A stretch of 21,398 nt of DNA from a virus. Positions 3,940 to 21,398 of the stretch are shown here, one piece after another (the stretch's first letter is position 1; each line of letters begins with the position of its first letter). Both the position numbers and the translations under genes were made by a program. The DNA lies in IMG/VR virus record IMGVR_UViG_3300021859_000175, positions 1 through 21,398 of that record. One strand, written 5' to 3'. The notes under the pieces are model-generated. The model was not told the DNA's origin. It saw only the letters and a program-made list of their open reading frames with translations, and searched no databases.

Positions 3940-4523
3940 GCGACGACGATCCGACGATGTGCGAGTACGAGGTGGATGAATACGGCTTCGGTGAGTTGAT
4001 CAGGGTTCGCGGGAAGCGTTTCGGAGACTTTGCTCTGAGACGTGAAGCAAAATCATGCATAGCGATCGACGACAGCGGGGGAGCAATGCTCCTGGAACCC
4101 GGCGACTTCGTGATCGATCATCTGCCTTCGAGAATGCGCATTGCATCGTCGAAGGAAGTCAATGAGCGCGCCGTCGACGTGTTCATCGATAGCATCGCGG
4201 TAGAGCTGGACGGTTGCGCCAACTTCGACGAGATCGACTCTCGATGCGACGAGATCGGGTTTCACCCGTATCGCAAGTGGTTGTTTGACAATCAGACCGC
4301 CGAGCCCCTCACCTTCCGACAGTGGAAGCGCAAGCGTGACGAGGCGTGCGACTCCGACACGAACCCGTTCCGTGTCATCTACGACGCGCGCGACAAGATC
4401 ACACCGTGGTACGTGGTCGATGAGCTGGGCACGTTCGTAATCGGATGCGGCGACGAAGCAGGCGCGCACTGCGAGGCGGAAGCGGCGTGGAACCACCGTC
4501 GCAAGCAGGAGCAGGGGCGATGA
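3936..4523 (+). CDS. Hypothetical protein, 195 aa
   Basis: Not recognised. The GTG start at 3936 overlaps the preceding stop (GTGA) and has a GGGGA about 9 nt upstream; an ATG at 3957 is an alternative. The protein is acidic with mixed alpha/beta character, with a segment resembling a phage phosphorylation-independent small domain only in size, and it ends in a charged helix (AEAAWNHRRKQEQGR). Residues about 145-185 (DTNPFRVIYDARDKITPWYV followed by VDELGTFVIGCGDEAGAHCE) look like a compact beta-rich domain. It lies in the chain of stop/start-overlapping genes between helicase and RusA, so it is probably an early accessory protein. Confidence 0.7.
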   Translation: MSDDDPTMCEYEVDEYGFGELIRVRGKRFGDFALRREAKSCIAIDDSGGAMLLEPGDFVIDHLPSRMRIASSKEVNERAVDVFIDSIAVELDGCANFDEIDSRCDEIGFHPYRKWLFDNQTAEPLTFRQWKRKRDEACDSDTNPFRVIYDARDKITPWYVVDELGTFVIGCGDEAGAHCEAEAAWNHRRKQEQGR

Positions 4524-4945
4524 CGACCGCGTCTCGCAAGCGCAGGGGAGCGCGAGCCGCGACTGGCGCGGTTCTGCTTCCGCCGTTCCTGTCCCACAAC
4601 AGCGTCGAGCTTCCGATCCGCATCGTGAGCGAAGCCAACGCGCGCGAGCATTGGCGAACCAAACACAGGCGAGCGGCATCGCAAAAACTGTGGGTGCGCA
4701 GTTGGCTAGATCCGGAGGCGAAGCACAACGCGAAGCCAAGCCTGCCGTGCGTGATTACGCTGACTCGAATCGCCCCCAGGAGATTCGACGGCGACAATCT
4801 GCAACGCGGGTTCAAGGCTGTACGCGATCAGGTCGCCGCGTGGCTTGGCATCGACGACGGCAGCGCGCTGATCACGTGGGAGTACCGCCAAGGGCGTGGA
4901 GCGCCGCACACGTACGGGGTGCGGATTGAGTGGAGGGATGCATGA
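4520..4945 (+). CDS. RusA-like Holliday junction resolvase
   Basis: This 141-aa protein fits the RusA family, magnesium-dependent homodimeric endonucleases that cut four-way DNA junctions and are common in phage replication blocks. The motif RRFDGDNLQRGFKAVRDQV (Asp90 and Asp92, with Lys99 downstream) followed by GIDDGS (Asp112, Asp113) and then a WEYRQG strand matches the DxDN...K...D acidic active-site layout. The N-terminal strand (ELPIRIVSEANAREHWRTK) matches the typical opening. E. coli RusA is 120 aa; this one has about 25 extra N-terminal residues. The start overlaps the upstream stop as ATGA, and its own stop overlaps the next ATG the same way. The role is likely resolution of recombination or replication intermediates before packaging. 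Confidence 0.82.
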   Translation: MTTASRKRRGARAATGAVLLPPFLSHNSVELPIRIVSEANAREHWRTKHRRAASQKLWVRSWLDPEAKHNAKPSLPCVITLTRIAPRRFDGDNLQRGFKAVRDQVAAWLGIDDGSALITWEYRQGRGAPHTYGVRIEWRDA

Positions 4946-5541
4946 AACGCTCGCTCCCAATGCTGCGCGGACGGCGACCAGTTCTACGACACGTCAAGCA
5001 CCCGCGCCCTGCGACCCGTGCCGACTGTCTCACTGGTGGCATGAACGCCGAGCGTCCTTGTCCTTACGTCGGGTGCGTCTGGAACCTCGCGCTCGACGTG
5101 ATGCCGAACGGAACGCTCCACTTCAACGCGCCGGTGACGTTCCACGACGGCGACCCGATCCCGGAAGTGCACATCGAGCAGATGCCCGACACCTGCGTGC
5201 TCGACGTCTGCGAGCGAGAAGGGGAAACGCTCGAGGGCATCGGCGCCTACTACGGCGTTACGCGCGAGCGCATCCGGCAGATCGAAACGACGGCGCTGCG
5301 CATGCGGCGCGACCAGTTCGGAGCGGTGGAGCAGGGCGAGACGATCCCTGCGCCGTTGTCGCGCCGGCAGCTCAGCCGGAGGAAGGTTGGAACCGCAGGT
5401 GAGCAAGCGGTCTGCGCGCACGACGACTGCTCGAACGTGTTCACGCGCAAGTGGCACACGCAACGATACTGCTCGGAGTTGTGTGCAGTGAAGGCCGACC
5501 AAGACCGTCGCAAGGCGTACAAGCGGAGCGTGCGGGTATGA
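4942..5541 (+). CDS. Sigma region 4-like HTH protein with C-terminal zinc finger
   Basis: This 199-aa protein has a central segment closely resembling sigma-70 region 4.2: GETLEGIGAYYGVTRERIRQ and IETTALRMR, residues about 94-122, the helix-turn-helix that reads the -35 element. No region 2 is present, so it cannot be a complete sigma factor. Before it is a cysteine-bearing segment (ERPCPYVGC, then MPDTCVLDVC). The C-terminus (about 157-181) has CAHDDCSNVF...RYCSELC, a probable C4 zinc finger. The ATG at 4942 overlaps the RusA stop as ATGA and has GGAGGG 4 nt upstream. The first 33 residues are basic and weakly conserved-looking, so the ATG at 5041 is an alternative start. It may regulate transcription, for example early-to-late switching; this is inference. 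Confidence 0.75.
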   Translation: MKRSLPMLRGRRPVLRHVKHPRPATRADCLTGGMNAERPCPYVGCVWNLALDVMPNGTLHFNAPVTFHDGDPIPEVHIEQMPDTCVLDVCEREGETLEGIGAYYGVTRERIRQIETTALRMRRDQFGAVEQGETIPAPLSRRQLSRRKVGTAGEQAVCAHDDCSNVFTRKWHTQRYCSELCAVKADQDRRKAYKRSVRV

Positions 5542-17375: not shown

Positions 17376-18851
17376 ATGACCGTTCCGTTCAACACGATCG
17401 CGTCTGCGGGTCTGATCCGCACCAACGTGCACGCCATCGAGGCCGACGGCTCGCGCGCGATCCAGGGACGCACCGCGCGCTCGCACAAGATCCTGTACAT
17501 CGGGCGCAAGCTGACCGCGGGCTCGGTGGCCGAGCTCGTCGCAACGCGCGTGTTCTCGGGTGACGAAGCCGACGCTTATTTCGGCGTGGGTTCCGAGCTC
17601 GCAGAGATGGTCCGCGCTGGCAAGACCGCGAACAGCTTCACCGAGATGTGGGCGATCGGAATCGACCCGCTGACCGGCGGCACCGCTGGAACGGTCACCG
17701 TCACGATCACGGGGCCGGCGACGGCCGACGGCACGATCCATCTCTACATCGCTGGTCATTACATCCCGGTCGCAGTGTCGAATGGTGACGTGCAGAACGA
17801 CATCGCCACCGCGGTCAACGCTGCGATCCAGGCGTACGGCAAGTACGCGCGCCTGCCGTTCACAAGCAGCGTCGGCACGAACGTCGTCACGCTCACCATG
17901 AAGTGGAAGGGCGTGGACGTCTCCGACGTGCGCACCAACTACAACGACGGCGACTTCACCCCGGCGGGCCTCACCGTCGCGGTTGCAGCCGGTGTCGCGG
18001 GCGCGGGCAACCCCGACATCAGCGAGGTGATCACCGCGATCGCTGCGCAGCATTACGACACGTTCGCTCACCCGTTCATCGACGCGACCAACATGGGTCT
18101 GTGGAAGACCGAGATGGCCCGCCGCTGGGAGGGCATGGTCAAGAAGTGGTCGAGCAGCTTCGTCGGCCACGTGGGCAACCACGGTGCGGCGACCTCACTC
18201 GGCAACGCGCACAACAGTCCCTACGTGACGATCGTCGCAGGCAACACGTCGCCGACGCCCCACTACATCTGGGCGGCCGTCGGCGCCGCGGTCGACGCGA
18301 AGGAGCCGATGCCGTCGCGCCCGCGCCAGACGCTTGCGCTTCCGGGCTGCTTGCCTGCCGCGCGCGACGAGGTGTGGACCGACGACGAGCTCAACGCGCT
18401 GCTGTTCGACGGCGTCAGCACGCACCGAGTCAGCGAGTCTCGCGACGTCACGATCGATCGATTCATCACCACCTACCAGACCAACGCCCAGGCGGTGGCC
18501 GACCCGACGTGGCTCGACATCTGCACGCCGCGCACGCTCGCGGCGATCATGTACGACCTCGACAGCTCGGTGAGCATTGCGTACCCGCGTCACCTGCTGT
18601 CGGACGACGGCGGGGAGTTGCCGATCGGATTGCCTGTCGTCACGCCCAAGGTGATGAAGGGCCACATCCACAACCGCTGGAAGTTGTGGCGTGACGCCGG
18701 GTGGGTCGAGCCCGCGAGCGAGGAAGACTTCCTCGACACGCTGATCGTGGAGCGCCCCGACGACTCGCGTACGCGCCTCGACGCGCAGCTCTCGCCCGAC
18801 ATCATGAACCAGTTCCGCGGCCTGAGCGCGCAGGTGTCGTTCGTCCTGTGA
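17376..18851 (+). CDS. Contractile tail sheath protein, Mu gpL-like
   Basis: A 491-aa protein, almost the length of Mu gpL (495 aa), that forms the contractile outer sheath. The segments MTVPFNTIASAGLIRTNVHA (N-terminus), KILYIGRKLTAGSVAELV, then a beta-rich central domain (GTVTVTITGPATADGTIHLY) and a C-terminal core with STHRVSESRDVTIDRFITTY and DTLIVERPDDSRTRLDAQLS match Mu-type sheaths. GAGGG lies 6 nt before the ATG. It is followed by a hairpin and then the tube gene, the usual sheath-tube order. Confidence 0.92.
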   Translation: MTVPFNTIASAGLIRTNVHAIEADGSRAIQGRTARSHKILYIGRKLTAGSVAELVATRVFSGDEADAYFGVGSELAEMVRAGKTANSFTEMWAIGIDPLTGGTAGTVTVTITGPATADGTIHLYIAGHYIPVAVSNGDVQNDIATAVNAAIQAYGKYARLPFTSSVGTNVVTLTMKWKGVDVSDVRTNYNDGDFTPAGLTVAVAAGVAGAGNPDISEVITAIAAQHYDTFAHPFIDATNMGLWKTEMARRWEGMVKKWSSSFVGHVGNHGAATSLGNAHNSPYVTIVAGNTSPTPHYIWAAVGAAVDAKEPMPSRPRQTLALPGCLPAARDEVWTDDELNALLFDGVSTHRVSESRDVTIDRFITTYQTNAQAVADPTWLDICTPRTLAAIMYDLDSSVSIAYPRHLLSDDGGELPIGLPVVTPKVMKGHIHNRWKLWRDAGWVEPASEEDFLDTLIVERPDDSRTRLDAQLSPDIMNQFRGLSAQVSFVL

Positions 18852-18940: not shown

Positions 18941-19291
18941 ATGGCCCGAACCGCAGGCGTAGTGAAGGTGCTGCTCGACGGCATCGACTACGGAACCAAG
19001 AGCGCCACCTACCGCATGGGTGGCAAGACCAAGACCTCGCAGTTTGCGAGTGGAAAGCGCACGGGCTCGAGCGAGCAGCCGAACGCTGGGCACATCGAGG
19101 TCGTGTATGAGCACCTCTCGACGACCGACTTCGCGACGCTGAGGGAGTGGGAGGGCACGGCGACGGTCATCTTCGACACCGGAGACGTGCACACCGTGGC
19201 GAACGCCGAGGTGATGGATTCCGTCGAGCTGCAAGGGCAAGGCAACGGCATCAGGCTCATGATCGAGGGCGACCCCGGGCAGCCAGGCTGA
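18941..19291 (+). CDS. Tail tube protein, Mu gpM-like
   Basis: A 116-aa protein, close to the 118 aa of Mu gpM, that forms the inner tail tube. The beta-rich sequence (GVVKVLLDGIDYGTKSATYR, HIEVVYEHLSTTDFATLREW, EGTATVIFDTGDVHTVANAE) matches the gpM pattern, including the strand-loop FATLREW-GTATVIF. It has a good ribosome site (GAAAGG, 7 nt). It directly follows the sheath, as expected for a contractile tail. Confidence 0.85.
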   Translation: MARTAGVVKVLLDGIDYGTKSATYRMGGKTKTSQFASGKRTGSSEQPNAGHIEVVYEHLSTTDFATLREWEGTATVIFDTGDVHTVANAEVMDSVELQGQGNGIRLMIEGDPGQPG

Positions 19292-19298
19292 TCACAAC

Positions 19299-19892
19299 AT
19301 GCAGGCCAAAGACGAACGCGTACGGGCGATGCTCTCAGGGCGTCGCTTCGTACGCGTTATTCCTTTTCCAGGGTCAGACGATATCTCGGTCGGGCTTCGC
19401 GTGCTCACCGAGCGCGAGATCGACGAGGCGCGGCTCGACGCGATCAGTTACGTGCGCGGTGAGGCCGACAAGCGGCGGATCGACCCGGTGCAGATGCTCG
19501 CGATCGACTCGCAGCTCGTGGACCGCGAAGCCGAGCGCGCGATGCTGTTCCGCGCATGCATCGATCCGGAGACCGCTAGCGACGCCGATCCGAAGCGGTT
19601 TTTCGACACGCAAGAGCGTCTCCGACAGATCGACTCGGTGATCGTCAAATCGCTGTTCGAGGCGTACCTCGATCACCAGGACTACGTGAGCCCGTATCGC
19701 TTGCTGAGCGACGACGAGGCGCGGGAGCTGGCAGACGCCATCTCAAAAGGGCAGAGCGCGACGGCACTCTTGGCGCAGTTCGATGCGCCCATGCTCAGGC
19801 GCTTGCTGCGTTCTATGGCTGCCCTGCTGTCGAGTGCTCCGACGTCCAAGTCCGATACTTCTGGGAGCTCCAACTCCGATGGGCCGAGCTGA
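19299..19892 (+). CDS. Tail assembly chaperone, Mu gp41 position
   Basis: A 197-aa protein between tail tube and tape measure, where the gpG-type chaperone sits. The N-terminal part has a short beta strand region (FVRVIPFPGSDDISVGLRVL) then a long helical domain (EREIDEARLDAISYVRGEAD to SLFEAYLDHQDYVSPYRLLS). The C-terminal region (ATALLAQFDAPMLRRLLRSM) fits such chaperones, after which the frame runs into Ser-rich low-complexity sequence. Another frame takes over (see 19743-19909), as in phages that make a longer form by ribosomal frameshift. These chaperones bind the tape measure and bring tube subunits. Function is inferred from position. Confidence 0.65.
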   Translation: MQAKDERVRAMLSGRRFVRVIPFPGSDDISVGLRVLTEREIDEARLDAISYVRGEADKRRIDPVQMLAIDSQLVDREAERAMLFRACIDPETASDADPKRFFDTQERLRQIDSVIVKSLFEAYLDHQDYVSPYRLLSDDEARELADAISKGQSATALLAQFDAPMLRRLLRSMAALLSSAPTSKSDTSGSSNSDGPS

Positions 19893-19909
19893 ACAAGCGC
19901 GAAAGCTGA
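19743..19909 (+). other. -1 frame extension of the tail chaperone (probable programmed frameshift)
   Basis: The -1 frame relative to the chaperone is open from 19580 to 19909 with no start codon in the stretch examined. From about 19810 it gives a protein-like sequence (AAFYGCPAVECSDVQVRYFW, then ELQLRWAELNKRES) with high G/C in third positions, ending 3 bases before the tape measure ATG. A candidate slip site AAAAGGG lies at 19745-19751 (0-frame codons AAA GGG), although the Y position is not ideal and a site nearer 19810-19840 is possible. This mirrors the lambda gpG/gpGT arrangement. Confidence 0.6.
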
Positions 19910-19912
19910 GCC

Positions 19913-21398
19913 ATGCCGGGACAAGTGACGACGAGCGCACGCGCGATCATTCGGATCGGCGCCTTGCCCGAAAGCGGGTTACAGCGCGCGCTCACCGGCA
20001 CCGTGACTGCTGTGCGCCGTGCGCAGCGCGACGTCGACGCCGACAACACGCGAAGCGTTCGTGAGCGCCAAAAGAACGAGGAGCGTTTGCAGCGCTGGAT
20101 CGCGAAGCAGCAGCAGGACGGCGCCAACACCCAGTTTCGGATCAATCAGCAAAAGCGGCGCGAGGAGCAGCGGCTCGCCGCTGACAAGCAGCGCACTGAG
20201 GAGCGCTCGCGCAGGGAGTCTGAGCGGCGCGCTCAGGACCTCGCCAGGATGGAAATGCGGATCCGTCGCGAGGTCGCTCGCACGGCTTCTCGCGAGGCCG
20301 AGCGCACGGCACGCACGCAGATCCGAGAAGCGCAGCGCGCCGCGCGCGAGGAGCAGCGGCTCGCGCGGCAGACATCCGACCGAAGGCGGGCGCTCATCGC
20401 TGGCGGTGTCGGTGCAGCCTACGGGGCCGCGGCCGGCACGCTCGGACTCGTGCAGCGTGCGCAGGGCGTCGCGGGCGTGGGATCGATCGAGCAACGCCTG
20501 CAGACCGCTACCGACTTCCGACAGACGTTGATCCGGACGGCAGGCGAAGCGGGCATGAGCGACGAAGAGCGCTCTGGGCTCGAAGAGAAGCTTCTCAAGA
20601 CATCCGAGCGCACGAACATCTCGATCGCTGACCTCGCCGCTGGCATGGCCACTGCGCAGGTGCGATTCGATGCGCTGCGCGATTTTGCCGAGGTGATCGA
20701 CGACCTTGCTGTCGTGGCTACGGCTACAGGCGAGCCGCTAGAGGATCTGATCGGAGCGCTTGGCTCTGCGCGAAACGCATTTCAACTCGACGCGCAGGGG
20801 ATGAAGCAGTTTGTCGACGTTCTCGCTTCGACCTCTGCTCGAGGCGCGATCGGTGCTGGCGATATCTCGCGCGACCTTGCGGCGTCGATGGGAACCTTCG
20901 CGCTGTCGAGCGGTAAGCGAGGCATCGAAGGGGCACGAGAGTTCCTCGCGACCGCTCAGGTAATCGGCGGCTCGTCGCAAGCTGGATCGGCTGAAACGTC
21001 GACGATGCTCGAGCGGTTTCAGCAGCAGATTGCGCTTCCAGATATCCAAAAGAAACTGGCACGCGCGGGAGTGCGCGTTCTCGACGATCAGGGTAATCAG
21101 CGAAGCATCGGCGACATCGCGCAGCAGATGGCTGCGAGCAAGCCGTTTCAGAGCCAGGAAGTTCGCAAGCTCGTGTTTCCCGAGCTCCGTGCCATGCGTG
21201 GCGCGGAGTTCTTGATGAGCGCTGTGCAGGCAAACCCAGAGGCGTTTACCTCGTTGCGTGATGTCGAAGCCGGCGCCGGAGACGAACTCATCTCGAAGCA
21301 GTTCAACAGGCTTTCAAACGACGCGCTTTTCAGCTTCCAGAATATCGGCACGCGCGCGCAAGCGACGACAGTGCGTGACGCTGACCGCATCGTCAAAG
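19913..21398 (+). CDS. Tail tape measure protein, 3' end cut by window
   Basis: The frame is open to the right edge, giving at least 495 residues. The protein sets tail length and is injected with DNA. The N-terminal 155 residues are a long Arg/Glu/Gln-rich coiled coil, followed by a small hydrophobic segment ALIAGGVGAAYGAAAGTLGLV (about 160-180). Next comes a region matching the phage tail tape measure core of the TP901 family: a helix (FRQTLIRTAGEAGMSDEERS), ISIADLAAGMATAQVRF, and later ASTSARGAIGAGDISRDLA and a QANPEAF. The ATG at 19913 lies 3 bases after the -1 frame stop of the chaperone, and its ribosome site is weak, suggesting translational coupling. Confidence 0.85.
   Translation, partial: MPGQVTTSARAIIRIGALPESGLQRALTGTVTAVRRAQRDVDADNTRSVRERQKNEERLQRWIAKQQQDGANTQFRINQQKRREEQRLAADKQRTEERSRRESERRAQDLARMEMRIRREVARTASREAERTARTQIREAQRAAREEQRLARQTSDRRRALIAGGVGAAYGAAAGTLGLVQRAQGVAGVGSIEQRLQTATDFRQTLIRTAGEAGMSDEERSGLEEKLLKTSERTNISIADLAAGMATAQVRFDALRDFAEVIDDLAVVATATGEPLEDLIGALGSARNAFQLDAQGMKQFVDVLASTSARGAIGAGDISRDLAASMGTFALSSGKRGIEGAREFLATAQVIGGSSQAGSAETSTMLERFQQQIALPDIQKKLARAGVRVLDDQGNQRSIGDIAQQMAASKPFQSQEVRKLVFPELRAMRGAEFLMSAVQANPEAFTSLRDVEAGAGDELISKQFNRLSNDALFSFQNIGTRAQATTVRDADRIVK

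Follow-up and report, generated by a model that had tools for sequence, protein, structure and literature searches.

Long-tailed phages share a conserved frameshift in a tail gene, including that of lambda gpG/gpGT (reviewed in PMC5009743), and in Mu itself the shift is -2 (PMC5009743). Tetramers of the form Z_ZZN are an established class of -1 slip site in E. coli and occur in insertion sequences; of the six active ones, A_AAA had the lowest activity and depended on strong stimulation (PMC4066793). One such tetramer site, G_CGA_AAG, is the -1 slip site of the insertion sequence IS1222 (PMC5009743, PMC4066793). We analyzed a complete virus record of 21,398 bases (the window), which is a fragment of a tailed phage, and found a gene pair that we read, with a probability of roughly 0.9, as a gpG/gpGT-type programmed -1 frameshift of the lambda kind in the tail assembly chaperone gene. 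Frameshifting of this kind is long known, and what is new here is the member itself, which had not been annotated and whose slip site is reduced.

The gene pair lies in a tail module on the plus strand. The module consists of the genes encoding the tail sheath protein (17376-18851; PF04984, 3.7e-15; phrog_165, 1.1e-129), the tail tube protein (18941-19291; PF10618, 2.8e-11; phrog_185), the putative chaperone (19299-19892), and the tape measure protein (19913-21398; PF10145, 4.7e-13; phrog_28, 2.1e-15), the last of which is truncated where the record ends. The putative chaperone gene is thus flanked by the tail tube gene upstream and the tape measure gene downstream. The order sheath, tube, chaperone, tape measure is common to Mu, SfV, and Bordetella phage PBb001. 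The sheath is of the Mu/SfV type, and the named phages nearest to it by sheath are Bordetella PBb001, Paraburkholderia IPK, SfV, and Mu, with 33-38% identity. Four distant sheath relatives (L011, L012, L013, and L016) carry an inserted gene between sheath and tube whose product has a start like KPFWDDKPVAIVGGGPSL, and some of the four have a second, glycosyltransferase-like gene there. Elsewhere in the window, positions 4930-5541 encode a possible phage transcription regulator of 203 aa, which combines a helix-turn-helix of sigma-70 region 4 (PF04545, 1.3e-7) with a C-terminal part rich in cysteine. A 271-aa protein encoded at 568-1383 had no Pfam match and resembles a sliding clamp by eye.

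The 0-frame product of 19299-19892 has 197 aa (22.0 kDa) and did not match a named chaperone family in Pfam or PHROGs. A weak match to phrog_389 (XkdN-like) was found in two of its relatives, with a best E of 0.024, and a Pfam and PHROG search with the -1 extension gave no matches. The structural model of the 0-frame protein had a mean pLDDT of 77. Its best PDB match by Foldseek was the HK97 tail assembly chaperone 2ob9 (prob 0.99, TM 0.61 by target length, E 0.063), and the name tail assembly chaperone is also carried by several viral matches of lower rank. Because the fold match and the gene order suffice together, the predicted product can be called a tail assembly chaperone.

We then considered the -1 reading frame in the window. 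This frame is open from 19580 to 19906 and ends with the stop codon TGA at 19907-19909, which adjoins the tape measure start at 19913. It contains zero ATG, GTG, or TTG codons. The end of the frame reads FYGCPAVECSDVQVRYFWELQLRWAELNKRES, and the C-terminus of the 0-frame protein is rich in serine (APTSKSDTSGSSNSDGPS). Both the start-less -1 frame open to 19909 before the tape measure gene and the Ser-rich turn of the 0 frame had been pointed out in the initial annotation. The pattern of GC content by codon position changes from the 0-frame type to the -1 type near 19800. Codon-usage log-odds were 50.1 for a switch from the 0 frame to the -1 frame vs 38.0 for the 0 frame only; the best switch point was at about 19797, and the 0-frame codon signal remained strong up to about 19790. 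With the switch placed at the slip site described below, the log-odds were 43.7. A codon-usage switch near 19797, and not at 19748, fits dual coding and does not pin the slip site. The openness of the -1 frame is weak evidence on its own and is near chance, as the shared segment downstream of the window's slip site stays open in 48% of synonymous-codon permutations.

The same pair of open reading frames was found in five independent viral contigs (L003, L004, L005, L007, and L024), which were obtained through queries with the sheath and with the chaperone alignment; L006 is near-identical to L005 and was counted with it. No relatives were found by searching the chaperone protein against phage records, by a single-protein viral scan, or by a chaperone-based genome scan, and a sheath-based genome scan returned distant prophages only, with chaperone genes unlike that of the window. 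Identity between the window's 0-frame protein and its five homologues was 38-48%. In all five relatives, the -1 frame extends beyond the slip region and terminates next to the start of the tape measure gene, and the -1 extensions of all five share the motif A-L/S-x-x-Y/F-Y/F-G-x-P-A-x-x-x-T/S-x-x-Q-V.

Conservation was assessed by permuting synonymous codons within each 0-frame gene and recomputing the aligned -1-frame similarity. After the site, this similarity was far above the null that preserves the 0 frame, both for all pairs (z=15.1, 0/1000) and for the pairs including the window (z=9.5). The same test on four upstream segments gave z of 1.2-3.9, which is the background of shared ancestry; phylogeny is not part of the permutation null, and scores should be judged against the upstream bins. 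In finer bins, the -1 excess rose from z 2.0 in the 12 codons before the conserved Lys codon AAA to 7.3 in the first 8 codons after it (1.95 to 4.3 in the window pairs). In the converse test, z for the 0 frame was 5.5-6.9 within the first 24 codons after the site, falling to 2.4 in the next eight. Conservation of both frames, with a -1 excess that starts at the codon after AAA, indicates on this comparison that both products are maintained and that the shift is at the AAA codon.

A -1 frame that is open and coding-like by chance, with only the 0-frame protein made, is barely credible in the light of these results. Many long spurious ORFs do occur in G+C-rich DNA, and the permutation result for openness is in favour of this explanation. 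However, conservation of the -1 peptide in the five relatives greatly exceeds that under a null with unchanged 0-frame proteins, and the -1 stop adjoins the tape measure start in all of them, so that chance opening is already refuted by the conservation test, barring an alignment artefact. Unlike openness, conservation is decisive evidence for the frameshift. The initial annotation had named an unconserved or interrupted -1 frame in homologues as grounds for rejection; the five relatives are open and conserved from the slip position to the stop, and, together with fold and synteny, they bear out the gpG/gpGT arrangement that it proposed. It had also described the last 30 codons of the -1 frame as strongly coding. 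The coding signal was recovered in codon usage and GC pattern, while the extent needs revision, as the conserved segment spans 53 codons from 19748 (with the stop TGA, 19748-19909).

The position of the slip was narrowed by the relatives. After codon 95, each of the five has exactly one X_XXZ_ZZN heptamer, at the same codon pair: G_GGA_AAA in L004, L005, and L007, and A_AAA_AAA in L003 and L024. In the window, this column reads C_TCA_AAA (19742-19748) followed by GGG, which does not have the X_XXZ_ZZN form found in all five relatives. The tetramer A_AAA, which belongs to the Z_ZZN class (PMC4066793), is kept at 19745-19748. Of about 4,580 codon junctions checked across the genes of the window, no other has A_AAA, and TCA (15/277 Ser codons) and AAA (17/165 Lys codons) are both rare, so that TCA AAA at the slip column represents a codon choice of about 0.6%. 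For these reasons, the presence of A_AAA at the heptamer column is unlikely to be due to chance. The initial annotation had put forward AAAAGGG at 19745-19751 as the slip sequence and suggested that the site might be of a new type. The sequence was correct, and its position is the column of the single heptamer of all five relatives. The suggestion of a new type is borne out only in part: AAAAGGG is indeed not a heptamer of the standard form, but A_AAA is of a known class (PMC4066793). As judged from the alignment, the unusual feature is a tetramer in a gene family whose relatives use heptamers.

A programmed -1 frameshift elsewhere in the window, for example on T_TTC at 19601-19604, is very unlikely. 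In E. coli, T_TTC outperforms A_AAA as a tetramer (PMC4066793), and the window's -1 frame has no stop from 19580 onwards. However, -1 stops in the relatives occur as late as codon 150 (L004), 143 (L007), and 142 (L003), between the T_TTC point and the common site; the stop at codon 150 of L004 means that the shift must take place at the common site or later. The strong 0-frame codon signal and the onset of -1 conservation only after the AAA codon also argue against T_TTC, and no Z_ZZN motif was found in the window's overlap after codon 149.

At the common site, judging from the codons, tRNA-Lys can step back one base and re-pair on A_AAA because AAA and the preceding A survive, while the Ser codon TCA cannot re-pair on CTC. 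We lean slightly towards a reading in which a single tRNA-Lys slips on A_AAA, the P-site half of an ancestral heptamer having been lost and an unrecognised stimulator compensating for it. Slippage after translocation, when AAA occupies the P site and the A site at GGG is empty, or slippage of both tRNAs on A_AAA_GGG as proposed initially, is a doubtful but not negligible alternative. Slippage of tRNA-Lys in the A site and in the P site are indistinguishable by sequence, as both give ...SK-RAERD (junction ELADAISK-R). On the other side, the heptamers of the relatives place AAA in the A site, and in the tandem form the re-pairing of tRNA-Gly from GGG to AGG would, from the codons, involve a first-position mismatch.

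It is also improbable that the slip site is damaged in this genome, or altered by a sequencing error, and that the phage of the window frameshifts inefficiently. The reduced site was seen in the window alone; a scan with a DNA pattern of the slip region and a separate scan with the tape measure yielded no further relatives and no second case of the reduced form. However, ATCTCA in the window vs TTGGGA in L005 amounts to four substitutions, not a single error; the sheath, tube, and chaperone ORFs are intact, as is the tape measure ORF up to the record end; and the -1 extension is still conserved.

The slip sites of L003 (6315-6325) and L024 (about 4449-4461) sit within runs of eight A, where transcriptional slippage could occur alongside ribosomal slippage. 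For the window, production of the -1 extension by transcriptional slippage, or as a separate protein by internal initiation, is hardly conceivable, as its run is only A4 and its -1 frame lacks ATG, GTG, and TTG.

We also looked for stimulators of single-tRNA slippage. The predicted fold of the RNA downstream of the window's site (19752-19830) was not unusual (z 0.13). Across the set, downstream hairpins had no excess stability except in L003 (z=-2.0), pairing in a consensus stem downstream of the site was no better than in shuffles, and an Rfam search gave a sub-threshold chance match only. As A_AAA is weak in E. coli and relies on strong stimulation there (PMC4066793), these results count against the proposed reading. 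Upstream, a Shine-Dalgarno-like GGGAG lies at 19723-19727, 14 nt before C_TCA_AAA. It occupies a position common to the window, L005, and L007 and is absent in L003, L004, and L024; for 11% of random codons, a core 4-mer of this kind occurs 8-20 nt upstream. GGGAG may therefore be regarded as a weak candidate for an upstream stimulator. A pseudoknot or the host translation machinery could also be a factor in the slip rate.

In the proposed mechanism, most ribosomes would stay in the 0 frame and produce the 197-aa chaperone, while a minority would slip back one base at TCA_AAA. The tRNA-Lys would leave AAA at 19746-19748 and re-pair with the overlapping AAA at 19745-19747, and reading would then continue in the -1 frame as AGG GCA GAG and onwards to the TGA at 19907-19909. 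The predicted frameshift product of 203 aa (23.3 kDa) would carry the conserved C-terminal domain RAERDGTLGAVRCAHAQALAAFYGCPAVECSDVQVRYFWELQLRWAELNKRES and would be 1.3 kDa larger than the 0-frame product. Peptides predicted to be specific to the -1 product are DGTLGAVR, YFWELQLR, and WAELNK, and those specific to the 0-frame product are GQSATALLAQFDAPMLR and SMAALLSSAPTSK. What the two products do is suggested by analogy with lambda (PMC5009743): the part common to both would coat the tape measure protein, and recruitment of tail tube subunits would fall to the extension.

The locus resembles lambda gpG/gpGT in that the gene lies just upstream of the tape measure gene, the -1 shift is near its 3' end, the C-terminal extension is short and has no start codon, and both products are conserved. 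The slip site of lambda is G_GGA_AAG, and that of the window, C_TCA_AAA, differs from it. In addition, the extension in the window replaces rather than lengthens the 0-frame C-terminus (197 vs 203 aa), and, unlike the lambda pair, the window pair has no detectable sequence similarity to named Pfam or PHROG families. Contractile tails of the Mu/SfV type (SfV orf13, Bordetella phage PBb001, and the metagenomic L039, L046, and L054) share with the window a homologous sheath and the same gene order. Their -1 extensions have a weakly similar motif, with an hhalign E of 6e-4 and a probability of only 29%. Their chaperones differ from that of the window in having U-rich heptamers, such as T_TTT_TTG and T_TTT_TTC, right where the 0-frame ORF ends. 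In Bordetella phage PBb001 (L027:5471-5862), a conserved-looking -1 extension follows T_TTT_TTG, and only the 0-frame chaperone is annotated. The site of the window is like that of IS1222 in that re-pairing in the -1 frame is possible for the A-site Lys codon and not for the codon before it. Unlike IS1222, the window has AAA in place of AAG, a tail gene in place of a transposase, and a stimulator candidate only.

These results identify a chaperone pair that had not been annotated, in a group of contractile-tail phages about which little is known. The gene would escape any scan based on a heptamer, though comparison with its relatives shows that the frameshift is maintained. With a heptamer in five of the six homologues and a reduced site in the sixth, the set represents a small natural experiment on how much of the site slippage requires.
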